Shown one piece after another: positions 7,416 through 23,176 of a DNA stretch of 64,000 nt. The notes under the pieces are model-generated. The model ran no database searches, had not been told where the DNA came from, and saw nothing but the letters and a program-made list of their open reading frames with translations. How positions within the stretch are numbered: position 1 is the stretch's first letter; every line of letters starts with the position of its first letter. The DNA comes from Pontiellaceae bacterium B12227 (GTDB lineage: Bacteria > Verrucomicrobiota > Kiritimatiellia > Kiritimatiellales > Pontiellaceae), in the NCBI GenBank assembly GCA_029432775.1, contig JAROAZ010000027.1, forward strand, positions 1 through 64,000, in the 5' to 3' direction. The translations under genes were made by a program, and so were the position numbers.

Positions 7416-8305
7416 TGCGCCATATTGGTTGTCGGGAACAGGTCCTCGATAATCTTTAAAATTTCCTGATTCTTCTGAATAGTTTCTTCATACTGTTTCT
7501 TCAGATCCGGTTTAATATCGAACGCATATTTCCGTTCATCCGTCTCCGTTGTCAACCGCTGGGCGGCCAGCATATATTGGAAGTCCGAAATATACTGTAG
7601 TGCGGTCTGCAGGTCGATCTCCGCCGCTTCCACCGCAAGCGCCAGCATTTCGAGCCGTTCGGCAATCTTCGGAAGGTATTGCTGCGACTCGGGGTGCGCG
7701 GCATCCACATTGGCCAGAATATGCTCAAACTGTTTTTTAGCCAGCTGATAGTTTTTCCGGGCATCCTTTGCTTTAAATTGAGGAAGCAGTTCCTCAGCCT
7801 GATCAAAATACCAGCGGCCCAGATTATACTCCAGCTGCAGGCGCAGGTTCCCCGCCCGTTCAAAATTCTGCTTGGCTTCCAAATCGGCCGGTTGCAGCAG
7901 AATCGCTTTCTCATACATGTCCATGGCCTGGAAGGCCAGTTCGATGGCCAGGCTGATTTCTTCGGTTTGTGTCAGCGCCGTGGTGCGGGCGAGCAGGGCA
8001 TTGCCCCGGTTAAAATAGGCTTTAGCCTGCAACTCGAGGTCCGTCGTGCGGAGCGCTTCATTAAACGAATGCTCGGCTGTTTCAAAATCGCCGGCCCGGT
8101 ATTGGGCATTTCCAAGGTTAAAGTTTCCAATGTCCGGAAACTCCAGCGCTGTTTTTTCAAGGTGCTGAATGGCATTCGTATAGTCGCCACCCTTGTACGC
8201 CTTAAGTCCCTTGCGCATTGAGGACCTCGGCGTGTCCTCCGCGACTGCGGAGAGAGAAAATATACCGAAAGCAAAGAGGATCAGGTTGTGTTTATCTATG
8301 ATCAT
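7412..8305 (-). CDS. TPR-repeat exported protein (BatC-like)
   Basis: The signal peptide is near 'MIIDKHNLILFAFGIFSLSAVAE'. TPR-type helices follow: 'MRKGLKAYKGGDYTNAIQHLEKTA', 'GNFNLGNAQYRAGDFETAEHSFNEAL', 'AKAYFNRGNALLART' and 'AMDMYEKAILLQPADLEAKQNFERA'. The C-terminal half is a long helical, partly coiled region without clear TPR consensus. The start at 8305 overlaps the batB stop as ATGA and has GAGGGAG seven bases upstream, so it is preferred over 8323. The protein probably works in the periplasm as a scaffold with the VWA proteins. Confidence 0.8.
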   Translation of the reverse strand: MIIDKHNLILFAFGIFSLSAVAEDTPRSSMRKGLKAYKGGDYTNAIQHLEKTALEFPDIGNFNLGNAQYRAGDFETAEHSFNEALRTTDLELQAKAYFNRGNALLARTTALTQTEEISLAIELAFQAMDMYEKAILLQPADLEAKQNFERAGNLRLQLEYNLGRWYFDQAEELLPQFKAKDARKNYQLAKKQFEHILANVDAAHPESQQYLPKIAERLEMLALAVEAAEIDLQTALQYISDFQYMLAAQRLTTETDERKYAFDIKPDLKKQYEETIQKNQEILKIIEDLFPTTNMAQ

Positions 8306-9306
8306 CCGCGGCTCCCTCTCCACTTAATCGGCCGAATGGCGGCTTCGAGCAGCAGCAGCAGGATCGCTGCTCCCACAAACCATTGAAAACGCTCGGTCCA
8401 GGTTTTCGACATGCGGGATTCCCGCTCTTCCCGCTGCAGCTCCGCAATGCCTTGCTGGTAAATACGCTCCAGTCCGAAGTCGCCCGGTGCAGAGCGGACG
8501 TAGAAGCCGCCGGTTTCAAATGCAACCCGTTCCAGCAGCTCTTCATTCAGCGAACTCTTTACCACGTTGCCGTCTTTATCCTTAACAAAACCATCCGAGG
8601 TCTGAATCAGCTCTCCTTCACGTGTGCCGACGCCGATGGCAAATACGCGAATATTTTCTTCCTTCAGTCGCGGCAGCAGCGAGAGCAGATCGCCGGTTGT
8701 ACTTTCACCATCTGAAATCAGGATGATCACCTTATCAGCCTGCATCTCTTCGGCCTTCTCAAAACTCTCAATGGAGGTTTCCAGTGCCCGGAAAAGATCA
8801 GTACCGCCGATCGGAACAATACCGGCATAGATATCATCGAGCATCATCAGGAAAGCGGCATAGTCGATTGTCGCCGGGCACTGCAGAAATGCATCGCCGG
8901 AAAAAGCAACGATGCCGATCCGGTCGCCGCGCAGCTCTTTGACCAAATCCCGCACGCCCCACTTCGCCTGCTGAAGGCGGTTGGGTTTAATATCCTGAGC
9001 CAGCATACTTTTTGATGTGTCGAGTGCCACCAGAATGCTCAGTCCGCGCTGTTTAACAGCTTCCCACCGGAAGCCCCACTGGGGCCGCGCCACGGCGGCA
9101 ATGGCCAAGGCCAGAACAAGGAGGCGCAGCAAGTTTTTGAGCCGCTGCCGCCGAGGCGACAAGAGCGGCAGCATGGTTGCCCAGAGGCCCTCATCCGCCA
9201 TACGTTTCAGCAGGCTTTGACGGCGCTTCAGCATCAGCCCGGTAATCAGCAAGAGCGGTACCAGGGCAAACAGCCACATTAGAATGTCGGAGTCATGCCA
9301 TTTCAT
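8302..9306 (-). CDS. batB: BatB-like VWA-domain membrane protein
   Basis: The 334-residue protein has N-terminal membrane helices ('MWLFALVPLLLITGLML' and 'LKNLLRLLVLALAIAAVARPQWG'). A von Willebrand factor A domain follows, with an intact metal site: DxSxS in 'VALDTSKSM', the conserved Thr in 'GGTDLFRAL', and Asp in 'ILISDGEST'. A C-terminal helix 'WFVGAAILLLLLEAAIRP' anchors it again. VWA domains bind partners through a divalent metal. The ATG overlaps the batA stop by one base (TGATG), so the two are translationally coupled. Confidence 0.9.
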   Translation of the reverse strand: MKWHDSDILMWLFALVPLLLITGLMLKRRQSLLKRMADEGLWATMLPLLSPRRQRLKNLLRLLVLALAIAAVARPQWGFRWEAVKQRGLSILVALDTSKSMLAQDIKPNRLQQAKWGVRDLVKELRGDRIGIVAFSGDAFLQCPATIDYAAFLMMLDDIYAGIVPIGGTDLFRALETSIESFEKAEEMQADKVIILISDGESTTGDLLSLLPRLKEENIRVFAIGVGTREGELIQTSDGFVKDKDGNVVKSSLNEELLERVAFETGGFYVRSAPGDFGLERIYQQGIAELQREERESRMSKTWTERFQWFVGAAILLLLLEAAIRPIKWRGSRG

Positions 9307-10271
9307 CAGGGGAGCCTCCCGATTCTGCTTAGTCCGATCAGCTGTTCCAGTCCCAGGAACAGGATGCCGGCAATCAGCCAGCCTTTGGAGGTTTCCTCAA
9401 AGCGCGTAAAACGCTCCACTTCAATCTCGGTTTTTTCCAATAGATCGATCTCGGCATAGACCGACTCAAGCGTTTCCAGATCCTTGGCACGATAAAACTT
9501 TGCGAGTGTGGTTGAGGCAATGTCCTGAAGCGTCTCTTCATCCACTTCCTGCCGCTGCATAAAGAAGCCGCTGCGCGCACCGCCAACGCCAATCGTGTAG
9601 ACTTTAACTCCGACTGCCTCAGCCACTGCTGCCGCATTATCGGGCGACACGGTCCCGGCATTATTCGCCCCGTCGGTCAGCAGAATGATGACCTTGCTTT
9701 TGGCCTCACTCTCCTGCAGGCGGTTGATCGCCGACATCATTCCATCGCCGATGGCCGTACGGTTGCCGTCGAGCATGCCGGTGTGCAGGCCATCCATGCG
9801 CTGAGTCAGCCAGCCGTGGTCCAGCGTAAGCGGGGCGATGGCATAGGGGACCGTGGCGAAGGCCACCATGCCGATGCGGTCGTTCGGACGGTTTTCAAGG
9901 AAGCGGGTGATCACTTCCTTCGAGGCCTCCAGCCGGCTCATGCGCCGTCCGAATTTTTGAAAATCCTGGGTGTCCATGGATTTAGAAAGGTCCATGAGCA
10001 GAATAATATCCACCGCTTCGGTTCGAACGCGGCTGTCTTCCAGCCCGCGTTGCGGACGGGCCAGGGCAACCACGAGGCAGGTTAAGCCGAGTGTGTAGAA
10101 CAAGGGGATAACCGGCTGCAGTCGCATGCGCCAGGTTTTCGGCAGTCCTTTAAGCACCGCGCTGCTGCTGAACTGCATCGACTGCTTACGCACCATGAAC
10201 CAGCGCAACCAGAGCAGCACCGGGATCAGGAGCAGGAGTAATAAGAAATAGGGATGTGCGAGACTAAGCAC
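9306..10271 (-). CDS. batA: BatA-like VWA-domain membrane protein
   Basis: Hydrophobic N-terminal segments ('PYFLLLLLLIPVLLWLRWFMV' and 'VIPLFYTLGLTCLVVALARPQRG') precede a VWA domain with a complete metal-binding site (DLSKSMD, 'GNRTAIGDGM', 'ILLTDGANNAG'). A C-terminal membrane helix follows ('GWLIAGILFLGLEQLIGL'). The 321-residue length is typical of BatA. Translation appears to start at a GTG (10271) that overlaps the upstream TAG stop, with GGGGAGG before it. This gene and batB probably form the metal-dependent adhesion part of the complex. Confidence 0.9.
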   Translation of the reverse strand: MLSLAHPYFLLLLLLIPVLLWLRWFMVRKQSMQFSSSAVLKGLPKTWRMRLQPVIPLFYTLGLTCLVVALARPQRGLEDSRVRTEAVDIILLMDLSKSMDTQDFQKFGRRMSRLEASKEVITRFLENRPNDRIGMVAFATVPYAIAPLTLDHGWLTQRMDGLHTGMLDGNRTAIGDGMMSAINRLQESEAKSKVIILLTDGANNAGTVSPDNAAAVAEAVGVKVYTIGVGGARSGFFMQRQEVDEETLQDIASTTLAKFYRAKDLETLESVYAEIDLLEKTEIEVERFTRFEETSKGWLIAGILFLGLEQLIGLSRIGRLP

Positions 10272-11242
10272 TATTTCACCTCCCCGGTTTGCTTGGTTTC
10301 CTCAACAAACTGCTGAGTTGTTTCAAAGGCGGTTTCCATGGTGGAGCGGTCGGGGTGGCCTTTGGCAAATTTTACGATATCGGCCTGACGCATAAACTCC
10401 TGGAGAATACCTTTCTGCAATCCGTCGAGTTCCGGAGACTTGCTCATCTCTTCCACGATTTCTTCGGTGGTTTCATCCGGAGCATTCAGACAGAAACGTC
10501 CTTCGAGATAGGTACGCAGAATCAATGAGAGTTCGGTGTAGAATGGTTTGCATTCATCCTTTTCCAGCAATCCCCGGTTCTTCAGCGCTTCCAATGCCTG
10601 GAAAGCTAGCACGTGCGGAGGAATCGGCGGAGCACTCGGGATCAGGGTGTCGCGGTTTTTCCAGAGTCTGGAAGTAATCAGACCAATCAGGAAGGCGGCA
10701 ATGGCGGACCCGAGGACAATCCAGATCCATTCCGGAATCCGGCCGGGCAGCTTGTGGACGTTTTTGATATCGGCAATTTGAGTCGATTCATCATTCAACG
10801 ACGTTCCAACCTGCAGAGTGACGGCCGGGAAATTCGTGCTTAAGAGTTGCCCGCCCAGTGCGCAGGAAACCATGCCGGTGGAAACGGGATGTTCGCCGAG
10901 GCGGAACGAGGTGATTGAGTAGCGGCTTTCTGATTGGGTCAGTCCGTCTTCCCTCGGTACGTCGGTCCAATCTCTGGAAAGCAGAACCACATCCTTCTCT
11001 CTTCCAATCTCCGGAAGAGTCAACGTGCCGTTGGTCGGGAAAAAGGCCGTAACGATCAGCTCAACCGGATCGCCGACCAGGATGGCTTCGCGGTCGACGG
11101 AGTATTCAACCGTCAGCCGGTCCTGAGGATACTCCTTCGGCTCCTCCGGTTTGCAACCCACCAGAACCAGGGGAAGAAGGAGCCACGGAACAACACGGAT
11201 GGCCGCGGATTCTAAAAATAGTCTGTGTTTTACTGTGTTCAT
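10271..11242 (-). CDS. Bat-operon lipoprotein with BatD-like beta-domain and DUF4381-like tail
   Basis: The product has a lipobox (LVLVGC) after a hydrophobic stretch. A beta-rich domain follows ('LTVEYSVDREAILVGDPVELIVTAFFPTNG', resembling the start of BatD domains), then a membrane helix ('WIWIVLGSAIAAFLIGLITSRLW'). The helical cytoplasmic tail contains 'LAFQALEALKNRGLLEKDECKPFYTELSLILRTYLEGRF', typical of DUF4381 and related Bat-operon proteins. The first 19 residues before the lipoprotein signal (MNTVKHRLFLES...) are encoded by an intergenic repeat (11191-11251). The ATG at 11242 is therefore only one possible start; a GTG within that stretch is the alternative. Confidence 0.75.
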   Translation of the reverse strand: MNTVKHRLFLESAAIRVVPWLLLPLVLVGCKPEEPKEYPQDRLTVEYSVDREAILVGDPVELIVTAFFPTNGTLTLPEIGREKDVVLLSRDWTDVPREDGLTQSESRYSITSFRLGEHPVSTGMVSCALGGQLLSTNFPAVTLQVGTSLNDESTQIADIKNVHKLPGRIPEWIWIVLGSAIAAFLIGLITSRLWKNRDTLIPSAPPIPPHVLAFQALEALKNRGLLEKDECKPFYTELSLILRTYLEGRFCLNAPDETTEEIVEEMSKSPELDGLQKGILQEFMRQADIVKFAKGHPDRSTMETAFETTQQFVEETKQTGEVK

Positions 11243-11251
11243 CTATGGCTA
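11191..11251. repeat. Intergenic repeat, 'GTGTTCATCTATGGCTAA' type, read as a leader peptide
   Basis: This segment contains ACACGGATGGCCGCGGATTC and GTGTTCATCTATGGCTAA, which I recognise as parts of a dispersed environmental repeat ('...cacagatgaacacagat...'). It covers the junction between the DUF58 stop (11249) and the next start (11242), and continues into the coding sequence of the lipoprotein. Confidence 0.5.
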
Positions 11252-12139
11252 ACGTCTCTGTGCCCGTTGGCGGAAGAATTTGATAAATTGTTTGTCGTAG
11301 GGTTCGCCGGCGAAGAGGCGGACGGTGTCGATGCCGGCTTTGCGATGCAGATCATCGACGGCTTCGGCGCGTTTTTCCTGATCCATCGCCAGCTTCCGGC
11401 GCACTTTTTTGCTGGAGGTGTCGACCAGTACGGTTTCGCCGGTTTCGGCGTCGTGCCAGTTGACGAGTCCGATATCCGGCCAGGCAATTTCGCGCTTATC
11501 GCCCACGACCACGCTGATGAGGTCGTGCCGGCGGGCGGAGATCTTCAGGAGTTGTTCATAGTCGTCGTTAAACATGAAATCCGAAATCAGGAAGGTGACA
11601 TTTTTACGGGTGCTGATATGGTTCAGATAATCCAGTGCGGGAACGGCATTGGTGCCTTTGCCCTGCGGTTGATGGCTCAGCATCTCGCGAACGAGGCGGA
11701 GCACATGGCGCGTTCCTTTTTTCGGCGGGATATATTTCTCAACCTCTTCGGCAAAGAGAATCAGGCCGATGCGATCGTTGTTGCGGATGGCCGAGAAGGC
11801 CAGTACAGCGGCGACTTCCGCAGCGAGGTCGCGCTTCATCTGGTTGCCGCTGCCGAACAGGTTGGAGGCGGAAACATCGACCACCAGCATGACGGTCATT
11901 TCGCGCTCTTCCACAAATTTCTTAATGTGCGGCGCGCCGGTACGGGCGGTTACATTCCAGTCAATCGTTCGGATGTCGTCGCCGGGCACATATTCGCGGA
12001 CTTCGTCGAACTCCATGCCGCGCCCTTTAAACGTGGAATGGTATTGCCCGGCAAACACGTCATTCACGGCGTGTTTGGTGGTGATCTGAATGCGCCGAAC
12101 CTTCTTCAGCAGTTCTTTGTGGTCGATAGAGTCGTTCAT
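11249..12139 (-). CDS. DUF58 domain protein (operon A)
   Basis: This 296-residue cytoplasmic protein has the DUF58 signature 'REYVPGDDIRTIDWNVTARTGAPHIKKF'. A VWA-like core follows with a metal-site motif DVSASN and 'ATFLISDF'-type strands ('NVTFLISDFMFNDDYEQLLK'). DUF58 proteins are regularly encoded next to MoxR ATPases and are thought to be their partners. The gene is 71 bp downstream of moxR, a gap filled by a short repeat array. No signal peptide is seen. Confidence 0.9.
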   Translation of the reverse strand: MNDSIDHKELLKKVRRIQITTKHAVNDVFAGQYHSTFKGRGMEFDEVREYVPGDDIRTIDWNVTARTGAPHIKKFVEEREMTVMLVVDVSASNLFGSGNQMKRDLAAEVAAVLAFSAIRNNDRIGLILFAEEVEKYIPPKKGTRHVLRLVREMLSHQPQGKGTNAVPALDYLNHISTRKNVTFLISDFMFNDDYEQLLKISARRHDLISVVVGDKREIAWPDIGLVNWHDAETGETVLVDTSSKKVRRKLAMDQEKRAEAVDDLHRKAGIDTVRLFAGEPYDKQFIKFFRQRAQRR

Positions 12140-12145
12140 GATTCG

Positions 12146-12210
12146 CGTGAAAAGTGAGCCGTGAGCCGTGAGCCGTGAGGGAAATCACGTTTCACGGCTC
12201 AATCGTCACG
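12146..12210. repeat. GTGAGCC tandem and inverted repeat between moxR and DUF58
   Basis: GTGAGCC is repeated about three and a half times (12154-12178). Its inverted copy TCACGGCTC occurs at 12192-12200, with TCACG again at 12205-12209. The stretch can fold into a hairpin. It fills almost the whole gap between the two genes and contains no coding signal. Confidence 0.7.
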
Positions 12211-13197
12211 TTAGGGCACCGGGATTTCAGAGAGGATTTTCTCGATGAGATCTTCGCTGGTCATCTCTTCGGCTTCGGCCTCGTAGGAGACGATGACTCG
12301 GTGACGAAGCACATCCGGAGCAATTGATTTTACATCCTGAGGTGTTACATAGCCGCGGCCCTGCATGAAGGCATGCGCCCGGGCACCCATGGTCAGATTG
12401 ATGGTGGCACGCGGGGAGGCGCCGTATTGGAGATAGTCTTTGATATCGAGGTTGTACTTCTCCGGCTCGCGAGTGGCGAAGACAATGCTGAGGATGTAGT
12501 CCTTGATCTTATCGTCGATGTAGATCTCGTCCACGATCTCGCGGGCCTTGAGAATCTCGTCGGGATGCAGCACGGCGTTAATCGGAATTTCGGTGTTGGA
12601 GTGGGCCATGCGGTCCAGAATGCGGCGCTCTTCTTCGATGGTCGGGTAGCCGACCTTGAGCTTGAGCATGAAACGGTCAACCTGTGCTTCGGGCAGAGGA
12701 TAGGTGCCTTCCTGCTCAATCGGGTTTTCCGTGGCCATCACGAGGAACGGTTTCGGAAGTTTGAATGTTTCGTCGCCGATCGTAACCTGTTTTTCCTGCA
12801 TGGCTTCGAGCAGGGCGCTTTGCACCTTGGCCGGTGCGCGGTTGATTTCGTCGGCCAGAATGACGTTGGCAAAAACGGGGCCTTTCTTAATAATGAAGTC
12901 GCCGTCTTTCTGGTTGTAGATCAGCGTACCGATGATATCGGCAGGAAGCAGGTCGGGCGTGAACTGGATGCGCTGGAAGGCGGTGTCGAGCGCCTGGGCG
13001 AGGGTGTTGATGGTCAGCGTTTTAGCCAGACCGGGAACTCCTTCGAGCAACACGTGGCCGTTGGCCAACAGGCTGATGATCAACCGGTCGATTAAATATT
13101 CCTGACCGACGATCACTTTTCCAATTTCAGATTTGAGGGTGGGCACGAATGCGCTCTGCTCGCGCACTTTCTGGTTAATAACTTCGATTCCAGCCAT
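12211..13197 (-). CDS. MoxR family AAA+ ATPase (operon A)
   Basis: The 328-residue MoxR-type ATPase contains Walker A in 'LLEGVPGLAKTLTINTLA' (about 54-71) and Walker B in 'VILADEINRAPAKVQSALLEAMQEKQVTI'. The sensor motif is 'VMATENPIEQEGTYPLPEAQVDRF'. The C-terminal lid contains 'YGASPRATINLTMGARAHAFMQGRGYVTPQDVK'. It is first in operon A and probably uses ATP to remodel or activate the DUF58/VWA partners. The start ATG has an upstream AAGGAG-like sequence. Confidence 0.95.
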   Translation of the reverse strand: MAGIEVINQKVREQSAFVPTLKSEIGKVIVGQEYLIDRLIISLLANGHVLLEGVPGLAKTLTINTLAQALDTAFQRIQFTPDLLPADIIGTLIYNQKDGDFIIKKGPVFANVILADEINRAPAKVQSALLEAMQEKQVTIGDETFKLPKPFLVMATENPIEQEGTYPLPEAQVDRFMLKLKVGYPTIEEERRILDRMAHSNTEIPINAVLHPDEILKAREIVDEIYIDDKIKDYILSIVFATREPEKYNLDIKDYLQYGASPRATINLTMGARAHAFMQGRGYVTPQDVKSIAPDVLRHRVIVSYEAEAEEMTSEDLIEKILSEIPVP

Positions 13198-15631: not shown

Positions 15632-16876
15632 CTACCGGCCGGGATTCAGCGGGGTCAGCGGCTCGGCTGTACGTTTTTCTTTCGGCCGAGCCTGTCTGTA
15701 TTCGGTAACAAATGCTTTTTCAAATGCCCGGCCGTCCCAGTTTGAAGCCGTATCTTTATAAAGCGTCTCCGAAAGCCGGTTCCAACCTTTGGAAAATTCA
15801 GGACTGAAAGGCGAACTCTGCCAGGCCAGCACTGCCGAGTAGGCCGCCTTCGGGTCATTCGCACGGCAGGCCGCAATGACCGCTTGGCGGGCCAGCCGCT
15901 CCGGCCGCTTCAGATCGTTCCAAACCTTGGAAACGATAGGATAGATCAGCGCCATCGGAAGAAGCCCCCACAGCCACTTCCAGTTGCGCGTTGGGGCGGA
16001 TGGGGTTTGCTGCACTTCGAATGCCGATCCTTCCCGCGTTACTGTTTTCAGTTTTTCGTCTACGGGATCCCACCACGTAAAAATGAGTTCCGGCAATGAA
16101 AACGTTCCGCCGCGACTGAACTGATATTTGATTACATCGATGCGTTCCGCCGTGGTCTCTCCACGATACGACTTATCGTGAATCTCCGGGCGGGCCGCAT
16201 AAACCTGAATGCCGTCCGGTGCCGAGAGATCCACATCCGGGAAAATCATGCCCGTGGTTTTATTTGCTTTGCGGGTGATGCGACGAATAACCACATCGCC
16301 CGGCTTCAGATCCTCTTCAGCGCCACCGGTCCAGGTCTGCTGGACCTTCATGTCCTCGACAGAAACCACAATGCCTTTTGTGCCCGGCGGGCGGCGCGAC
16401 TGAAAGTGCAGCGCTTCCGTGCTCCCCGTATGCGGTTCCGGGTCGGAAATATAATCCTTCTTCGCTTCGAACCGGATACGGATCGGCGGGATCTCAACTG
16501 TTCCACTCAGCTGCGTATACACGCGGAACTCATGCGCCTGCGTCAGCCAGGTATCGCCGCCAACCGTTTCACTGCCTACGCTCGGACTTCCCTCTTTAAT
16601 GAAAAAGGTCTGCGCGGTTTCCGGTAGATCAAACGAAGCTGTTCCACTGAACGGACCTCTTGCCCGCAGCGTAATCAGCAGGGGAACCCCTTCACCCACC
16701 CATGCTTCCTCAGTCCCCAACTCCGCTGTGATCGGGGCCGCTCGTGCAGGGACAATTATGGCTACAAGAAACACATAATTGAGAAAGAATAAGGAGCAAT
16801 TTAGGCACGAAAAGAATACCGAGCCGGCCCGTCTCTTCTTGTGAATTTTTGTGTTTTTTGTGGCTGAAAATATCAT
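15632..16876 (-). CDS. BatD-like exported protein (operon B)
   Basis: The protein has a beta-rich extracytoplasmic domain ('ITAELGTEEAWVGEGVPLLITLRARGPFSGTASFDLPE') with BatD-like elements ('FRVYTQLSGTVEIPPIRIRFEAKK'), and a membrane helix ('WKWLWGLLPMALIYPIVSKVW'). The helical cytoplasmic tail contains 'RQAVIAACRANDPKAAYSAVLAWQ'. The ATG at 16876 overlaps the upstream stop as ATGA and has GGAGA before it. The next codons (ATKNTKIHKKRRAG...) come from an intergenic hairpin repeat and precede the real signal-peptide core 'LNYVFLVAIIVPARA'. It is the last gene of operon B and is shorter than BatD of operon A (414 against 585 residues). Confidence 0.8.
   Translation of the reverse strand: MIFSATKNTKIHKKRRAGSVFFSCLNCSLFFLNYVFLVAIIVPARAAPITAELGTEEAWVGEGVPLLITLRARGPFSGTASFDLPETAQTFFIKEGSPSVGSETVGGDTWLTQAHEFRVYTQLSGTVEIPPIRIRFEAKKDYISDPEPHTGSTEALHFQSRRPPGTKGIVVSVEDMKVQQTWTGGAEEDLKPGDVVIRRITRKANKTTGMIFPDVDLSAPDGIQVYAARPEIHDKSYRGETTAERIDVIKYQFSRGGTFSLPELIFTWWDPVDEKLKTVTREGSAFEVQQTPSAPTRNWKWLWGLLPMALIYPIVSKVWNDLKRPERLARQAVIAACRANDPKAAYSAVLAWQSSPFSPEFSKGWNRLSETLYKDTASNWDGRAFEKAFVTEYRQARPKEKRTAEPLTPLNPGR
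16804..16864. repeat. GTGGC-family hairpin repeat, copy a (translated)
   Basis: The left arm remnant GGCACGAAAAG and the right arm TTGTGTTTTTTGTGGC form an eroded inverted repeat. It lies within the first codons of the BatD-like gene and is read in frame. Confidence 0.75.
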
Positions 16877-17535
16877 GGTTCAGTCTCCATAGTATGTTGA
16901 TAGGAGAATTTATTTTTCAGGAAATCGGCCGGATCGGTCTGAACGCGGCGGAGCCAGAGGGCCTGCATATCCTGATGCGACGTCTCCTGATCTTTTTGAA
17001 TGGTCGTCTCCTGTCCTTTATTATTTTTCGGCTTATCAAAAACCATTTTGTCCGCGCCGATCTTCTGGTCGCCCTGATCGCCACCCGTATGTTCCGTGGC
17101 CTTCGCGCGGATCCGCGCAATCTCGCGGTTAGTCCGTGCCGCGTCCCAATCCGGCTTCACTTGTAGTGCCCGGTCAAAGCTCTGGATGGCCTCTTCATAC
17201 TGACCGAGAAAAATAAAGCAGTTACCGCGGTTATAATCGGCATCCGGCGAGGCGATCTGCCGGAAGGCCGCCTCCGCCTTTTTGAATTCGCCCGCCCGAT
17301 ACCACGCCGCTCCAACCCGCATCGGATCCTCAAAGACGTCCGCCGCTTCAGCAAAGTCCCCGCGCTCCATCAGCCGCTGCCCCTGCTGGTCCGGCGTCAA
17401 AAACAATCCGACCAACAAAACACTCACGGACATGAACTGGACGGATTGTTGGCCACGAGAAACACAAAAATTTACAAAGAAAGATCCCTGTTTGTTTTCG
17501 TGTCTTTTTGTATTTTTTGTGGCTATCGCATTCAT
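16873..17535 (-). CDS. TPR-repeat membrane protein (operon B)
   Basis: I place the start at ATG 17535: it overlaps the upstream VWA stop as ATGA and has a strong GGAGG ribosome site. The first 30 or so residues (MNAIATKNTKRHENKQGSFF...) are encoded by a hairpin repeat. They lead to a hydrophobic signal or anchor (MSVSVLLVGLFLTP). TPR helices follow ('RLMERGDFAEAADVFED', 'GAAWYRAGEFKKAEAAFRQIA', 'ADYNRGNCFIFLGQYEEAIQSFDRALQVKP'), then a charged Gln/Lys-rich tail. It corresponds to the BatC/BatE-type TPR members of operon A. A shorter start at 17433 is possible. Confidence 0.78.
   Translation of the reverse strand: MNAIATKNTKRHENKQGSFFVNFCVSRGQQSVQFMSVSVLLVGLFLTPDQQGQRLMERGDFAEAADVFEDPMRVGAAWYRAGEFKKAEAAFRQIASPDADYNRGNCFIFLGQYEEAIQSFDRALQVKPDWDAARTNREIARIRAKATEHTGGDQGDQKIGADKMVFDKPKNNKGQETTIQKDQETSHQDMQALWLRRVQTDPADFLKNKFSYQHTMETEP
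17451..17523. repeat. GTGGC-family hairpin repeat, copy b (translated)
   Basis: The left arm GGCCACGAGAAACACAAAAA pairs with the right arm TTTTTGTATTTTTTGTGGC around a short loop. It starts 12 bp inside the TPR gene and is read in frame as ATKNTKRHEN on the coding strand. Confidence 0.85.
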
Positions 17536-18350
17536 TCGGAGGACCTCCGGAATTGAAACAGAGCAAGCAGGGCTATAACAGGAACGATCCACCATCCCGC
17601 CTCGGCCCAACGGGTTTTCCCTTCGGCCGTCGCGGCAATCATCGTTCCTTTGGTTTTACGGTCCAGCGTTTCAATGTCGGCCGTATCCGGTGAAATCATC
17701 ACCGCACCCTTAACCTTGGTGCGCGAAACGGCGAGGGTGTAAACCGGCAGCTCGGAGTCGTATGCGGGAAACGTATCGGCGATCACCACAATCGACCCGC
17801 CCGTTTCCTTCAGGGTCTTTTCCGCAAGTTTGATCGCGGCATTCAGATCATCACCCGGCTCCGGCATAATTTCGGGGCTGATGTGCCCGGCCATGGTTGC
17901 GACCACTTCCGTGTCGCGCGTCGGAGGCAAAACCAGATGGGCAGTTCCGGCATAGGCAATCAGGCCGGTCGGTCGGCCCTTCCGAATGGTGGAAAAATCG
18001 ACCACCTTTAACCGGGCCCGTTCCAGCCGCGACGGAGAAAAATCCTCGTGGTTCATCGACTCGTCCGCCTTCAGCAGAATCATGACGGGGGACGGGTCGT
18101 CGGAAAAGGGCGACGGCTCTGGCTGCCATGTCGGCCCCGCCACGGCAATAACTGCGAGCAGCCAGGCGGCCAAACGAGCCATGCCAAACACTGATTTGCT
18201 ATTCCCCATCACCACCGCACTCAACAGGTCCGGATCCATGACCTCCCGCCAACCGCGCAGAGGATCAGCGGCCCGTTTCCATAGGAACCAGACAAGCACC
18301 ACCAATGGGATGCCGAGCAGAATGATTGGACGTATGAAGTGAAAGGTCAT
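17532..18350 (-). CDS. VWA-fold membrane protein with degenerate metal site (operon B)
   Basis: The arrangement is that of BatA/BatB: N-terminal helices ('FIRPIILLGIPLVVLVWFLW' and 'ARLAAWLLAVIAVAGPTWQ'), a VWA-like domain, and a C-terminal helix ('WWIVPVIALLALFQF'). The expected DxSxS metal motif reads KADESM ('ILLKADESMNHEDF'), so the first Asp is Lys and the first Ser is Asp. Metal-dependent binding is probably lost or altered. The start at 18350 (MTFHFIRP) gives the natural N-terminus. The frame continues to an ATG at 18383 inside a hairpin repeat. It is separated from the other VWA gene by the GxxExxY gene and two repeats. Confidence 0.8.
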   Translation of the reverse strand: MTFHFIRPIILLGIPLVVLVWFLWKRAADPLRGWREVMDPDLLSAVVMGNSKSVFGMARLAAWLLAVIAVAGPTWQPEPSPFSDDPSPVMILLKADESMNHEDFSPSRLERARLKVVDFSTIRKGRPTGLIAYAGTAHLVLPPTRDTEVVATMAGHISPEIMPEPGDDLNAAIKLAEKTLKETGGSIVVIADTFPAYDSELPVYTLAVSRTKVKGAVMISPDTADIETLDRKTKGTMIAATAEGKTRWAEAGWWIVPVIALLALFQFRRSSE

Positions 18351-18358
18351 TTTTTTAT

Positions 18359-18432
18359 GGCCACAAAAATCACGAAAAGACACGAAAACAATTCTGGCAT
18401 GTCTTTTTGTGCCTCTTTGTGCTTTTCGTGGC
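18359..18432. repeat. GTGGC-family hairpin repeat, copy c
   Basis: GGCCACAAAAATCACGAAAA forms one arm and TTTGTGCTTTTCGTGGC the other, with a short AT-rich loop. This is one of the most complete copies, between GxxExxY and the degenerate VWA gene. Confidence 0.88.
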
Positions 18433-18479
18433 TAACATTTTTAAGCTGTTTAGTCCGTTTCCATGCTGGGTATTTTAAT

Positions 18480-18543
18480 GGCCACGAAAAACACAAAAAA
18501 GCACGAAAACGGTAAGGGTGATTTCTTTTTGTGTATTTTGTGA
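18480..18543. repeat. GTGGC-family hairpin repeat, copy d
   Basis: The arm GGCCACGAAAAACACAAAAA pairs with TTTTTGTGTATTTTGTG. It is 47 bp from copy c and 15 bp after the GxxExxY stop, so two hairpins lie in tandem. Confidence 0.88.
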
Positions 18544-18557
18544 CCTCCATCCTATTC

Positions 18558-18926
18558 CTATCCCATTACATATTTTTTAACGTATAGTTTAGGAGCTCCA
18601 AAATTGATTAGGAGGCCATCATGGACTCTGGCCGATTTCAAGTAACCCAGAAGCTGTGCAATGTGTTCATCCAATGTGTGTTTGCAGGCTTTCAGTTCAA
18701 CGATCAGGCAGTCTTCTATAAACAGGTCGGCATAGTATTCGCCGAGAATAGATCCGTCTTCGTCGTAAACCGTTAAAGCATGTTGCTGTTCGACTTTCAA
18801 ACCGAGTTTTCTGAGCCGGTTCACCAGTGCGTTTTCATAGATTTTTTCCAGATGCCCATTACGATGATACTTATGGATAGAAAAACTGGTTTCCCTGACC
18901 ATATCGCAAAGCTTATTGATTTCCAT
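18558..18926 (-). CDS. GxxExxY family protein (PD-(D/E)XK nuclease-like)
   Basis: The 122-residue protein carries the name-giving motif G24-H-L-E27-K-I-Y30. It then has a candidate nuclease core: D67 in 'GEYYADLFI', and E77-x-K79 in 'CLIVELKA', followed by 'HIAQLLGYLKSARVHDGLLINFG'. The family is predicted to be related to restriction-type nucleases but its role is not established. It has a strong ribosome site (AAGGAGA) and overlaps the C-terminal codons of the upstream VWA gene by 14 bp. Copies of the GTGGC hairpin repeat lie on both sides (18480-18543 and 18935-18965). It is foreign to the Bat gene order and looks like an insertion. Confidence 0.85.
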   Translation of the reverse strand: MEINKLCDMVRETSFSIHKYHRNGHLEKIYENALVNRLRKLGLKVEQQHALTVYDEDGSILGEYYADLFIEDCLIVELKACKHTLDEHIAQLLGYLKSARVHDGLLINFGAPKLYVKKYVMG

Positions 18927-20001
18927 TGCCGTCTCCTTTTTGTGCCTTTTCGTGTTTTTTGTGGCTCATGCTTTGTTCCTCCACTTCTAATTCGGCCGTC
19001 TGTACATTGACCCGAAGTCTGGAGGGAGAGGCGCTGTCCGTGCGGCGGCGGTGACGGAGCAACGCGGTCCACTCGACGGAACTAATGCAGGAGAGTAAGA
19101 GGGCGGCGGCCAGCGGCCAGAAATAGAGATCCGTGCGCGGACGATGGCTGATGGTTTTAATCTCGCGCGTTTCCAATGCATCGAGTTCCGTATAGATGGC
19201 TTCGAGTTCGTTACGGTCCAGTGCCAGGAAATAGTTTCCGCCCGCCGTTGCCGCGACTTTCTTCAGGGTGGTTTCATCCAGTTTTTCTTCGCCCACGCTT
19301 TCCGGGTTACCCATGGCGATGGTGTGGATGGTGATGCCGCGGTCGCGGGCAACCTTCGCCGCTTCTTCCGGCGGCACCTGACTGGCGGTATCGTTGCCGT
19401 CGGTGAGCGCGATAATTGTTTTGGCCGGCGCTTCGCTGTTATCGAACAGCCCGATTCCCAAGCCAATGGCATCGCCCAGCGCGGTGCGCGGCCCGGCCAT
19501 GCGGACGGCAGTCTCTTCCAGCAACTGGCGGCTCAGGTCGAGGTCGGTGGAGAAGGGTGCCTGCAGAAACGCGGCGTTGCCGAATACGACCAGCCCGACG
19601 CGGTCGCCTTCACGCTTCAGCAGAAAGTCACCGACCACTTCTTTCGTGGCGGTCAGCCGGTCGGTTTTTTCGCCGACGGCGTTGGTGAAATCTTCGGTAT
19701 CCATCGAACCAGACAGATCGACGATCAGCAGGAGATCGCGCGTGGGAACCTGCTTTTCAATCGGAGGTTCGATCCACTGCGGGCGGGTGAGCGCGGTCAG
19801 AACCAGCAGCCATACGATCCACGACTTCCAATGCCTGGAATGTTTCCGAACCTTGGAAACGCCATCCGCCGCTTTCTCAATCCGATCCAGAAATGGAACC
19901 CGCACCGCTGCGGCCTCCGCCGTGCGCGATGGCAGGAACCGCGCTGCCAGAAAGGGCAACGGGGCCAGAATGAAGAGCCATAGATGCGCAAACGTCAGCA
20001 T
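18913..20001 (-). CDS. BatA/BatB-like VWA-domain membrane protein (operon B)
   Basis: The start at 20001 (MLTFAHLWLFILAPLPFLAARFLP) overlaps the DUF4381 stop and has GGGAG six bases upstream. The longer open frame to 20133 is not needed. After a second helix ('WIVWLLVLTALTRPQW') the VWA domain has an intact metal site: DLSGSMD, 'PRTALGDAIG' and 'ALTDGNDTA'. A C-terminal membrane helix follows ('LYFWPLAAALLLSCISSVEW'). The last 17 residues or so (MSHKKHEKAQKGDGNGNQ) come from a GTGGC-type repeat arm at 18935-18965. The original C-terminus was therefore probably extended when the repeat and GxxExxY gene arrived. Confidence 0.88.
   Translation of the reverse strand: MLTFAHLWLFILAPLPFLAARFLPSRTAEAAAVRVPFLDRIEKAADGVSKVRKHSRHWKSWIVWLLVLTALTRPQWIEPPIEKQVPTRDLLLIVDLSGSMDTEDFTNAVGEKTDRLTATKEVVGDFLLKREGDRVGLVVFGNAAFLQAPFSTDLDLSRQLLEETAVRMAGPRTALGDAIGLGIGLFDNSEAPAKTIIALTDGNDTASQVPPEEAAKVARDRGITIHTIAMGNPESVGEEKLDETTLKKVAATAGGNYFLALDRNELEAIYTELDALETREIKTISHRPRTDLYFWPLAAALLLSCISSVEWTALLRHRRRTDSASPSRLRVNVQTAELEVEEQSMSHKKHEKAQKGDGNGNQ
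18935..18965. repeat. GTGGC-family repeat, single arm, copy e (translated)
   Basis: CTTTTTGTGCCTTTTCGTG followed by TTTTTTGTGGC is one arm without an obvious partner. It encodes the C-terminal tail of the VWA protein and lies just upstream of the GxxExxY start. Confidence 0.8.
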
Positions 20002-20519
20002 GTGTGCTCCCGAATCCATTGTTCCGCAAACTGACGCAGTGCTGAAGTATCGCCGGCTTCGTCTGAATAGACACTCGCCAACGCCTGCCGGACTTTTTCC
20101 GAACCTTGGAAGCCGCCTTGAACTTCCAACCATTGGAACCAGTCTTCGCCCTTGAGCAGGGCTACGGTTTCGCGCCCGTAAGCGTGAATGGCCACGCGGC
20201 GCAAAATTTCTGCGATGCCCGAGACTGAATCAACCTGTGCGAGTTCGGTCAGAGCCGCACGGCGATAGGCATTTTTCCGGTAGGCACTCATCTTTCGAAT
20301 TAAAAAAAAGGCGACCAACCCAAGCATGAGAGCCTGCAGAATCCAAACGCCCGGCGCGGGCGGCCAGCCGGATACCGGGTCCGGCATCACAATATCGTTG
20401 AGATCATTCAGCGTCAGATTCTCGGCGGAAGTAATCCTCGCAGAGCCGCAGAGAACGCAGAGGAATATTTCTGTTCTCCTGCTCCGTGATCTCTGCGGCT
20501 CTGCGAGGAATATATTCAT
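19995..20519 (-). CDS. DUF4381 domain protein with repeat-derived N-terminus
   Basis: The DUF4381 core runs from 'LNDLNDIVMPDPVSGWPPAPGVWILQALMLGLVAFFLI' (with the membrane helix) through a basic helical region ('YRKNAYRRAALTELAQV') to 'LALL...GEDWFQWLE'-like sequence near the end. These short membrane proteins accompany MoxR/DUF58/VWA genes. The only ATG overlaps the DUF58 stop as ATGA (20519). The first 34 or so residues (MNIFLAEPQRSRSRRTEIFL...) are encoded by a CGCAGAG-type hairpin repeat, not by the conserved domain. The frame is kept through the repeat. Confidence 0.82.
   Translation of the reverse strand: MNIFLAEPQRSRSRRTEIFLCVLCGSARITSAENLTLNDLNDIVMPDPVSGWPPAPGVWILQALMLGLVAFFLIRKMSAYRKNAYRRAALTELAQVDSVSGIAEILRRVAIHAYGRETVALLKGEDWFQWLEVQGGFQGSEKVRQALASVYSDEAGDTSALRQFAEQWIREHTC
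20436..20508. repeat. CGCAGAG-family hairpin repeat (translated)
   Basis: CCTCGCAGAGCCGCAGAG pairs with CTCTGCGGCTCTGCGAGG, an 18-bp perfect stem, around an AT-rich loop. It is a different family from the GTGGC repeats. It lies immediately after the coupled start codon of the DUF4381 gene. Confidence 0.9.
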
Positions 20520-21445
20520 ACGTTATACCCCAGTGCGCTTAGGATCTGATCGCCCACATCGTCGTGCGTACAGATCGGAAGAACCGGGACCTTCAGGGCG
20601 CTGAACCGTTCCTGAATCAGTCGGCCCCATTCCACAAAGGCGGCTTCATAGTTATCCTGAAAACTTCGGCCTTCGGGAATGGTCAGCTGTTTTTCGCCAT
20701 CGGTTACTTCGAGACTTCCAAGGGTTGGAAGGCGAATACCCAGTGGGTCGTAGACCAGCGCGGCCATCATATCGTTATGCGCCGCCAGCCGGGAGACCAG
20801 TTTGCGGGTTTCCGGCCCGGCGCCATGGCAGTCGGTTGCGAGTACGATCAGGAAATCATGTTTGGCCAGATTTGCCGCCTGCCGCAACGCTTCGTCCAGC
20901 GCATTGGGATTATCCGCCCGATTGCCGGCATCGAGCTTCTGGTTCATCGTCACCATTTCGGAGCAGATGCGATGCACCGTGGCGCGGCTTCGGTGGGGTG
21001 GAACATAGGCCGTCTCTTCGTCGTTGAAAATAATGGCGGCGGCGCGGTCGCCCATGGAGAGCGTGCGCCAGACACCGAGCGCGGCGAGTTCGCAGGCGGC
21101 AACGGCTTTGGTGGCGCGGGCGCTGCCGAAGTGCATGCCGTTACGCTGGTCGATCACGAACAAAACGGTGCGTTCGCGCTCTTCGGAGAAAACACGAACG
21201 TGCGGTTTTTTCAGGCGGGCGGTGGCGCGCCAGTCCATGCTGCGGATGTCGTCGCCGGGGCGGTAGTGCCGGAGTTCTTCAAACTGCAGGCCGCGTCCGC
21301 GCAAGCGGGAGGCGTGGCGTCCGCTCAGCAGACTGTGGATCGGTTGTTTGGGAAGAAAGGAAAAGCGATGCTGATCGAATTGGAGCCGAACCAGATCGTC
21401 CAGTTCCACATGCACCTTGGCTTTCATTGACGGCTTTGCGGACAT
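20516..21445 (-). CDS. DUF58 domain protein (operon B)
   Basis: The protein shows the DUF58 signature 'ELRHYRPGDDIRSMDWRATARLKKPHVRVF'. The strand that carries DVSAS in operon A reads DQRNGM here, so its metal site is probably not functional. 'DFLIVLATDCHGAG' is the later strand. I prefer ATG 21445 (MSAKPSMKAKVH); ATG 21427 is also possible. The frame extends to 21475 only through a GTGGC repeat. It is downstream of MoxR and coupled by ATGA to DUF4381. Confidence 0.87.
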   Translation of the reverse strand: MSAKPSMKAKVHVELDDLVRLQFDQHRFSFLPKQPIHSLLSGRHASRLRGRGLQFEELRHYRPGDDIRSMDWRATARLKKPHVRVFSEERERTVLFVIDQRNGMHFGSARATKAVAACELAALGVWRTLSMGDRAAAIIFNDEETAYVPPHRSRATVHRICSEMVTMNQKLDAGNRADNPNALDEALRQAANLAKHDFLIVLATDCHGAGPETRKLVSRLAAHNDMMAALVYDPLGIRLPTLGSLEVTDGEKQLTIPEGRSFQDNYEAAFVEWGRLIQERFSALKVPVLPICTHDDVGDQILSALGYNV

Positions 21446-21450
21446 TTTAT

Positions 21451-21522
21451 GGCCACAAAAAACACACAAAGGCACGAAAACTAAACCGCTCTGTTTTTGT
21501 GTATCTTTGCGTTTATCGTGGC
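21451..21522. repeat. GTGGC-family hairpin repeat, copy g
   Basis: The arm GGCCACAAAAAACACACAAA pairs with CTTTGCGTTTATCGTGGC. It fills the gap between the MoxR stop (21532) and the DUF58 start (21445). Confidence 0.88.
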
Positions 21523-21531
21523 AATTCCTTC

Positions 21532-22491
21532 TTAAATGACGGCGACGCGTTTGAGGATCTCAGCAACGAGGTCGTGGCGGGTAAGGCCGGCGGCTTCGGC
21601 TTCGTAGGAAAGGTGGAGCCGGTGCGCCAGACAGGCGGGGGCAACCGCCTGCACGTTTTCGGGCGATACAAAGTCGGCGCCGTTGAGCCAGGCGTGTGCC
21701 CGGGCGGCGGCATCGAGCGCGATGGTTGCGCGGGGGCTTGCGCCGACCTGAATCCAGTTGGCCAACTGCTCGTCGTAGTTGCCCGGTTCGCGAGAGGCGA
21801 TGACCAGATCGACGATATATTTTTCGACCGCTTCGGCGACGTGGATCTGATCCACTTCTTTGCGGGCTACGAAGACGGCAGAGGGATCGATGGCGGTCGG
21901 ACTGTTTTTTGTTGTTCCGGTATTTTCTCCACGGACGAGGCGGAGAATTTCGAGCTCGTTTCCAACCTTTGGATAATCGACCCGGACATAGAGAAGGAAT
22001 CGGTCCATCTGCGCTTCGGGCAGGGGATAGGTGCCTTCCTGTTCGATCGGATTCTGTGTGGCAAGCACCATGAAGAGTTCGGGCAGTTTATGGGTGGTAC
22101 CGCCGACGGTGACCTGCCGTTCTTCCATGGCTTCGAGCAGCGCGGCCTGTACCTTGGCGGGCGCGCGGTTGATTTCGTCGGCGAGGATCAGGTTGCCGAA
22201 GAGGGGGCCGGCCTGAAATTCAAATTCGCCGGAGTGCTCGCGATAGATTTCGGAGCCGGTCACATCAGAAGGTAACAGGTCCGGCGTGAACTGCACGCGG
22301 CTGAAATCACTCTGGATCAGGTTGGCCAGCGTTTTGATGGATCGGGTTTTGGCGGTGCCGGGTAGCCCTTCCATCAGAATGTTGCCGTTGGCGAGCAGAC
22401 CGATCAGCAGGTGTTCAACCACATGTTCCTGTCCGATGACCGAGCAGGAAAGGTCTTTCCTCAGCTGATTGAAGACGTCTTTCTGACTCAT
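21532..22491 (-). CDS. MoxR family AAA+ ATPase (operon B)
   Basis: The protein (about 319 residues) has Walker A 'MEGLPGTAKTRSIKTLA' and Walker B 'LILADEINRAPAKVQAALLEAMEERQVTV'. The sensor motif is 'VLATQNPIEQEGTYPLPEAQMDRFLL' and the C-terminal lid contains 'VGASPRATIALDAAARAHAWL'. The natural start is ATG 22491 (MSQKDVFNQL), one base after the barrel gene stop. The frame upstream of it overlaps that gene. It should drive the DUF58/VWA proteins of operon B as its paralogue does in operon A. Confidence 0.93.
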   Translation of the reverse strand: MSQKDVFNQLRKDLSCSVIGQEHVVEHLLIGLLANGNILMEGLPGTAKTRSIKTLANLIQSDFSRVQFTPDLLPSDVTGSEIYREHSGEFEFQAGPLFGNLILADEINRAPAKVQAALLEAMEERQVTVGGTTHKLPELFMVLATQNPIEQEGTYPLPEAQMDRFLLYVRVDYPKVGNELEILRLVRGENTGTTKNSPTAIDPSAVFVARKEVDQIHVAEAVEKYIVDLVIASREPGNYDEQLANWIQVGASPRATIALDAAARAHAWLNGADFVSPENVQAVAPACLAHRLHLSYEAEAAGLTRHDLVAEILKRVAVI

Positions 22492-22492
22492 T

Positions 22493-23176
22493 TCAGAATC
22501 CGGCGGTGTAGCTTGCGTAGAGGCCCAGACCGGTGAGGTCGGAACTTCCACCCACGTTTGAAAAGTCGACAGAAGACCAGTTGGCACGGGCTCCGAGCCC
22601 GAGCATGCCCTTTCGGTGAATCCGGAACTCAATGCCGGTGCGTGCATAGAGCCCGAGTCCGAATGCGGATTCGGTGTCGTTCTGATCCGGATCGCCGTTA
22701 TCGTATTCGCGTTCGGTACGGTAGCTGGCAAAGACCATCAGCGGGCCGCCGCCGGCATAAATACGGACCTTTTCCGATTCGGTCAGAAACAGGCTGGCAT
22801 AGGCTCCGCCGGCGAGGTCGAACATCCACATGGAGGTGGAGAGGCTGACGTATGCGCCGCCTCCGCCGAGGTAGGCATAGTTTACTTTATCGAAGCGGAA
22901 GCCCAGCAGAAAGGTGGCTTCCAACCCATATTGAAAGCGCTCTCCTTTAGGCAGGCTGTGCCAGGCACCTCCGACTTGTGGTAGCAGGGCCAGATCGACT
23001 TTGGCTCCATCGGCAGCATCTTCGGGGTTCAGTTTCAGGTTTTCATACTGAACAGCACCCAGCAGGCCGGACACCGTGTAGTTTTCATCCCACGAATCGT
23101 ATTTATGGTATTGGGCCTGAGCGACTGAAACCGAGATGGTGAGCGTTGCTGCAATCAGGAATGTACAAATCTTCAT
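22493..23176 (-). CDS. Outer-membrane beta-barrel protein
   Basis: A signal peptide (MKICTFLIAATLTISVSVAQAQ) is followed by alternating amphipathic strands rich in Gly and aromatics ('YLGGGGAYVSLSTSMWMFDLAGGAYASLFL', 'FGLGLYARTGIEFRI'). It ends 'GLGLYASYTAGF' with a terminal Phe, the usual barrel-assembly signal. No specific family is recognised. The gene begins 2 bp after the RND pump stop and ends 1 bp before moxR. It therefore bridges the efflux genes and operon B in one transcript. Confidence 0.75.
   Translation of the reverse strand: MKICTFLIAATLTISVSVAQAQYHKYDSWDENYTVSGLLGAVQYENLKLNPEDAADGAKVDLALLPQVGGAWHSLPKGERFQYGLEATFLLGFRFDKVNYAYLGGGGAYVSLSTSMWMFDLAGGAYASLFLTESEKVRIYAGGGPLMVFASYRTEREYDNGDPDQNDTESAFGLGLYARTGIEFRIHRKGMLGLGARANWSSVDFSNVGGSSDLTGLGLYASYTAGF

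Follow-up and report, generated by a model that had tools for sequence, protein, structure and literature searches.

The GxxExxY gene that lies between two VWA genes of a Bat operon in Pontiellaceae bacterium B12227, together with the two arrays of short repeated words that flank it, constitutes one compact element with dispersed gene-free relatives. The word from which the arrays are built is specific to the clade of the encoded protein rather than to the genome in which the element resides. The gene-and-repeat element recurs with GxxExxY relatives of many phyla, and comparison with the open literature points to it being undescribed. The counts presented below derive from targeted searches of genomes.

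The GxxExxY locus in operon B

The features of operon B, the Bat operon that hosts the GxxExxY gene, are given in Table 1, with positions referring to the window, i.e. the whole 64,000-nucleotide stretch of DNA that was analysed. The gene is enclosed by an inverted pair of arms, and each arm is an array of three CAC[AG]AAA-type words (~7 bp per word, with a period of 9-10 bp). On the 3' side of the gene, read in gene sense, an internal GTCACAAAATACACAAAAAG is followed by ...TTTTCGTGCTTTTTTGTGTTTTTCGTGGC, which ends at 18481. The original prediction described hairpins on one side of the gene and an arm on the other; these repeats are real (18360-18432, 18481-18544 and 18937-18965), but are not merely beside the gene. 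Rather, the arms at 18937-18965 and 18481-18509 are the two ends of a single gene-containing element, with the hairpin at 18360-18432 being a separate gene-free copy. RNA folding of the hairpins at 18360-18432 and 18481-18544 gave z-scores of -6.4 and -3.9, respectively.

Table 1. Positions of the element, its parts and the neighbouring genes and hairpins in the window
Feature	Position	Strand	Remarks
Whole element: terminal inverted word arrays and GxxExxY gene	18481..18965	-	~485 bp
GxxExxY protein gene	18558..18926	-	PD-(D/E)XK fold (predicted), 122 aa
Gene-upstream arm	18937..18965		GCCACAAAAAACACGAAAAGGCACAAAAA in gene sense (18965 down to 18937)
Gene-downstream outer arm	18481..18509		GCCACGAAAAACACAAAAAAGCACGAAAA
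Inner arm	18526..18544		with 18481-18509 forms short hairpin downstream of gene
Gene-free hairpin, same word as element	18360..18432		separate from element; absent from G025
Gene-free hairpin, VWA/TPR junction of operon B	17452..17523
Imperfect hairpin, TPR/BatD-like junction of operon B	16761..16864		absent from G025
Gene-free hairpin, DUF58/MoxR junction of operon B	21452..21522		absent from G025
Hairpin of second word CGCAGAG, DUF4381/DUF58 junction	20432..20512		absent from G025
Upstream VWA (BatA-like) gene	18913..20001	-	C-terminal tail encoded by element's arm
Downstream VWA gene	17532..18351	-

The upstream VWA protein had been predicted to end in repeat-encoded residues, and this was borne out both in the window (SMSHKKHEKAQKGDGNGNQ) and in the closest relative (SIGHEKHKKET in G025, a contig of Kiritimatiellales OB10 in which the VWA protein is 89% identical). 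The same repeat was likewise found, as anticipated, at further junctions of operon B, namely TPR/BatD-like (imperfect), VWA/TPR and DUF58/MoxR. When the 6.3-Mb genome was searched with the pattern TTTTYGTGTTTTTYGTGGC, allowing 3 mismatches, 45 matches were obtained compared to 13 for the reversed control pattern; 11 of the 45 arm matches lie in operon B, and no window-type arms were found in operon A. The window contains two complete Bat/MoxR operons, at 8302-13197 and 15632-22731, only a few kb apart. Many short TTCCAANNNTTGGAA-type palindromes (families D2, D5, D7 and D11) were also observed between positions 1166 and 58054, often in or near coding sequence, and a GxxExxY gene is located beside a Bat VWA gene in the relatives G005, G013, G032, G034 and G039 also.

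The orthologous junctions show both occupied and empty states. In G025, the same VWA/VWA junction has kept both arms and about 200 bp have been lost from inside the GxxExxY gene, indicating that the gene is decaying there. In Pontiella sulfatireligans (G021) the junction is empty and the VWA genes overlap by ATGA, confirming that the two genes are direct neighbours elsewhere. At the gatC/gatA junction, an element with CACTAAT words is present in G000, G005 and G013, and in about 16 congeners the site is empty, with just a few nucleotides (about 5-9) between the gatC TAG and the gatA ATG. The same junction in G002 is occupied by a gene-free hairpin, which at its inner edge still has the 3'-terminal bases of the gene, stop codon included (TCTGA); judged from these residual bases, the hairpin looks like an internal deletion of a gene-bearing element. 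No target-site duplication or clean insertion footprint is readable at gatC/gatA or in G025, the sites being old. Other inserts were encountered at gatC/gatA, comprising a different small ORF in G015 (MGLTNASIELRNPRKPELKPVIVDALADTGA..., aspartic-protease-like by eye), which is without word arrays, and yet another hairpin in G007. A second copy of a GxxExxY element (430 bp, 99% identical) is present on the same chromosome in Rubritalea profundi (L081 and L085); this copy is truncated at both ends, and no very recent full-length transposition was seen.

Arms and words across genomes

The association between gene and arms was examined at 59 homologous loci drawn from 84,980 species genomes, with arm density being computed for 58 of these. 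Window-type arms occur at 2.59 per kb within 200 bp of the gene, at 0.24 per kb between 200 and 500 bp, and at 0.005 per kb between 4 and 10 kb, a difference of ~500-fold between the nearest and most distant intervals. The polarity of the arms is such that a GCCAC arm lies upstream of the gene and a GTGGC arm downstream. A word-independent test, in which the best inverted pair between the upstream and downstream flanks was scored, placed 32 of the 58 loci beyond the 99th percentile of scores from random positions within them. In a set of 125 GxxExxY genes, which takes in paralogues in relatives, the flanking inverted-repeat pair of 102 scored higher than the 99th percentile obtained with shuffled flanks, and that of 93 scored higher than every shuffle; the prediction that GxxExxY genes stand beside such repeats across genomes is thereby upheld. 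The arms lie a median of 21-22 nt from the GxxExxY domain on either side, the word period in the arrays is roughly one helical turn (8-10 bp), and the element measures ~0.43-0.49 kb. It sits at tight gene junctions inside operons, mostly in the sense of both neighbours (76 GxxExxY genes are in the same orientation as both, and 6 opposite to both). Examples among named isolates include a radA/GxxExxY locus in Bacteroides finegoldii with arms (CACCACAGAGGACGCAGAGGACACGGAG), a Bernardetia isolate with a similarly flanked gene, and the fabD/GxxExxY/fabG locus of Sphingomonas parapaucimobilis, in which the C-terminus of the protein is encoded by the right arm. The long fused PDDEXK_3 genes present in the window's genome (L016-L019), which serve as an internal negative control, have no arms, and no clear arm pair was evident at the plasmid-borne loci L285 and L288.

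The arm word varies between loci, with classes including CAC[AG]AAA, CGCNAAG, CACRGAG, ACAGGAT, CACTAAT, C[AG]CNGAT and CACGGA. Mapping of seven word classes onto a tree of 102 proteins required 13 changes, the minimum being 6, compared to a mean of 38.5 with shuffled labels (0 of 200 shuffles were as low). The more identical two proteins are, the more similar are their arms (rho 0.46; permutation maximum 0.16), a correlation that vanishes for pairs of less than 50% identity. A first impression from the window's own genome, that gene and repeat were not associated, was overturned when each paralogue turned out to have its own word: the window word is carried by the window gene only among the 12 PDDEXK_3 genes of that genome, and the paralogues carry several different words that are common to their homologues in other genomes. 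A word set by the protein lineage, as here, is the signature to be expected of a word-recognising protein.

Repeat number was also found to be higher in genomes that have the matching gene, the check proposed originally, in comparisons that ignore kinship. Thus, exact CACTAAT hairpins number 3, 3 and 5 in the congeners with a CACTAAT gene versus 3 in total in 25 without (kinship ignored), and genomes with a word-A gene contain an average of 13.5 GTGGC arms, compared to 2.7 in those that have no such gene (P=1.7e-6, kinship again being ignored). For the hairpin word CGCAGAG, no exactly matching gene was found in the assembly. Gene-free arrays that share the word of a gene occur at other junctions, mostly where the genome also carries the matching gene, and gene-free hairpins are more numerous than gene-bearing ones.

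Among CACTAAT hairpins (50 arms), the words are 96% identical between hairpins and the spacers 37%; in the arm that played no part in detection, 352 of 378 positions within words agree (93%), and the spacers are 33% identical. Complementarity between facing spacers of these hairpins (L236-L254) is 0.22, as opposed to 0.38 when shuffled (0 of 5000 shuffles as low), one possibility being that perfect palindromes are avoided. Slipped pairing of the arms was considered as a purpose of the spacers and was not significant. All 18 of the gene-free CACTAAT hairpins tested are located at gene junctions, often reaching no more than 18 nt into the end of an ORF (35 nt for L250), and stop codons are present within the words CACTAAT and ATTAGTG. 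Searches against Rfam returned sub-threshold matches to miRNA models that are typical of hairpins, with no family reaching its gathering score, and a known RNA family was discounted.

The GxxExxY protein and described repeat systems

The nuclease-like motif that was noted originally is well founded. The window protein matches TIGR04256 GxxExxY (E=4.9e-32; 110.7 bits against a cut-off of 35) and PF13366 PDDEXK_3 (E=5e-29), and 51 homologues show no variation at G24, E27, Y30 and D67 and hardly any at E77 and K79. A PD-(D/E)XK fold is confidently predicted by the AlphaFold2 model, which has a PD-(D/E)XK core (pLDDT 96.6, pTM 0.89). The closest solved folds, at TM scores of about 0.5-0.6, are SSO0001, which we take to be of the Cas4 type, MGME1, the AdnAB/AddAB nuclease domains and lambda exonuclease; no sequence homologue with a solved structure was found. 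Pairwise dN/dS at shared sites, where dS was measurable, is 0.03-0.19, and the gene is under strong purifying selection with the catalytic residues kept. The window protein is not basic (16 K+R versus 17 D+E), and PDDEXK_3 was the only domain found in it, with no known transposase or recombinase domain. A role as a defence gene was set aside, since PADLOC gave no match for the window protein and the weak Cas4 matches of a paralogue reflect the fold. GxxExxY genes are rare on plasmids (8 of 72,556 plasmid records) and absent from the 50,697 phage records searched, indicating that they are not simply phage or plasmid cargo.

TIGR04256/PDDEXK_3, the same protein family, is named by motif and fold only. 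In the open literature searched, GxxExxY is given no target, function or association with repeats; the term was met in unrelated papers only, and neither PDDEXK_3 nor any of six word strings was found.

The original prediction envisaged a REP/RAYT-like arrangement. Its core, the pairing of gene and repeat, is supported by the systematic flanking and by the co-variation of word and protein clade, and there is a likeness to REP/RAYT systems and REPINs in the presence of one resident gene with many dispersed, associated palindromic intergenic repeats (PMC8266576, PMC3116915). The dispersed copies track the gene here too, in counts that ignore kinship. Membership of that class is nevertheless contradicted by the protein, which is not of the HUH/Y1 type, and by the arms, which are longer, are built of word arrays and begin with words such as GCCAC, AACCAC or TCTCNC in place of a GTAG (or CGTC) tag. 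Moreover, the window's genome has eight Y1_Tnp genes of its own, and those with flanking palindromes (L029, L031 and L036) carry separate, GTAG-type REPs (CGTAGACGGAGCTTCCAGCTCCG, TGTAGGCCGGG...). A RAYT was rejected as mobiliser of the hairpins on the grounds that the Y1 genes with palindromes, among those inspected, carry other repeats. At least two unrelated gene-repeat systems thus coexist in one genome.

Like MITEs such as NEMIS, ERIC and RU, the hairpins are short gene-free inverted-repeat elements between genes (PMC10969869, PMC2229807), and terminal inverted repeats, which typify IS elements and MITEs, flank the genes at the frequency given above (102/125). In contrast to MITEs, the putative autonomous partner lacks a DDE transposase domain, being a nuclease, and no target-site duplication was seen.

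The closest described object is the intervening sequence (IVS) of Coxiella, a 428-nt sequence in which a 28-bp terminal stem encloses an S23p ORF and which is cut by RNase III (PMC4990558). As with 23S rRNA IVSs, the GxxExxY element is ~0.43 kb in length, has one small ORF within terminal inverted repeats, looks selfish and is patchily distributed (PMC4990558). It differs in lying between protein genes, in operon B and other operons, rather than in rRNA, in encoding a PD-(D/E)XK protein unrelated to S23p/PF05635, and in building its arms from arrays of repeated words, of which gene-free copies are dispersed. Genes for PF05635 proteins (23S IVP, four-helix) were themselves found in protein operons (L128-L134 and L256-L284), where they lie between inverted arrays of their own G/T-rich words (TTTGGAGT, GGCTTTA and GGTCAGA); 27 of 32 arm pairs exceed the 99th percentile of shuffles, and 17 the maximum. 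These genes and their arrays are a parallel element class.

Origin and maintenance of the element

The first choice among the explanations, with a probability that we would put marginally above even, is that the GxxExxY gene and its arrays form an element moved by its own nuclease. The protein would bind the words of its own arms, perhaps as several protomers on one face of the DNA, and by acting on the element ends, or on a single-strand hairpin, would insert or copy the element into intergenic sites. The gene-free hairpins would then be products of internal deletion or non-autonomous derivatives, and would still be recognised by the protein. In favour of this explanation are the flanking of most genes by arm pairs, the clade-specific words, the empty sites, the tracking of the gene by gene-free copies, the conservation of words over spacers and the predicted fold, as well as the scarcity on plasmids and absence from phage records. 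Insertion at stop/start junctions, the stop codons in some words and the retained sense orientation may account for the element being tolerated in operons. Conversely, the long vertical retention and low dN/dS are unusual for a purely selfish mobile gene, and purifying selection at fixed sites, along with word conservation in gene-free copies, exceeds what would be expected of a simple hit-and-run transposon. The unreadable insertion footprints, the want of a recent full-length transposition, the non-basic protein, the CGCAGAG word with no exactly matching gene and the loss of the word-protein correlation below 50% identity also weigh against a moved element.

Several of the same observations could feasibly reflect a resident system, domesticated or addictive, in which the nuclease and arrays are of service to the cell or enforce their own retention. 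Purifying selection is strong at fixed orthologous sites, words are conserved while spacers and loops randomise, the bias in orientation is 76:6 and the tested CACTAAT hairpins are placed tightly at gene junctions, all of which speaks for such a system. It is, however, difficult to reconcile with the patchy presence and empty sites, with decay of the gene in G025 and its loss in G002 while the arms were retained, and with the occurrence at unrelated junctions and in different phyla at 75-82% protein identity, which needs horizontal spread. A resident system is considered unlikely, if still to be taken seriously, and the same holds for particular roles such as hairpin processing, site marking or regulation of operon transcripts, with the arrays being selected as binding sites.

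It is rather improbable that the element operates at the RNA level in the manner of a 23S IVS, with the arms pairing in the transcript, the element being cut out or bypassed in mRNA (e.g. by RNase III), and the protein acting on RNA or being incidental. The size and layout correspond to those of the Coxiella IVS, the PF05635 genes of these genomes share the architecture, and the sense bias and efficient folding of the hairpins as RNA are compatible with this explanation. However, complementarity between facing spacers falls below that of shuffled ones, the opposite of what selection for a stem would produce, and each word behaves as a unit of sequence. The PD-(D/E)XK enzymes whose folds were matched are, moreover, mostly DNA-acting, and the Rfam result is also unfavourable.

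That the GxxExxY gene is a passenger, captured by chance between hairpins moved by a RAYT or another transposase, appears very improbable. The eight Y1_Tnp genes and the numerical excess of gene-free hairpins are in keeping with it, but a clade-specific word is not expected of a passenger, the long fused PDDEXK_3 genes lack arms, and the inspected Y1 genes with flanking palindromes have repeats other than the GxxExxY words. Finally, a coincidental gathering of repeats and small ORFs in permissive operon junctions, for which the other inserts at gatC/gatA might be cited, is refuted by the controls, the local enrichment, inverted orientation, short distance to the domain and clade-specific words leaving it a negligible probability.

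Returning to the element moved by its own nuclease, a broader generalisation is offered tentatively and, taken whole, is doubtful: GxxExxY proteins may be word-specific PD-(D/E)XK nucleases, with clade-own 7-bp words spaced about one helical turn apart, that drive widespread minimal mobile elements and gene-free hairpins, the PF05635 four-helix proteins driving a parallel class with words of their own.

Short A/T- or GA-rich hairpins of the CACRAAA, CGCAGAG, CACAGATGAA and CACTAAT types are common in environmental genomes, and to our knowledge have no assigned origin. Several hairpin words are now linked to one small nuclease family, providing a testable protein-word code across many phyla, and GxxExxY and 23S-IVP genes, both little studied, are suggested to be the genes that reside in a single architectural class of element that enters operons between housekeeping genes. 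Should the GxxExxY protein act on the words, repeats would be mobilised by a new mechanism that involves no known transposase, and the family would be a source of compact sequence-specific nucleases.
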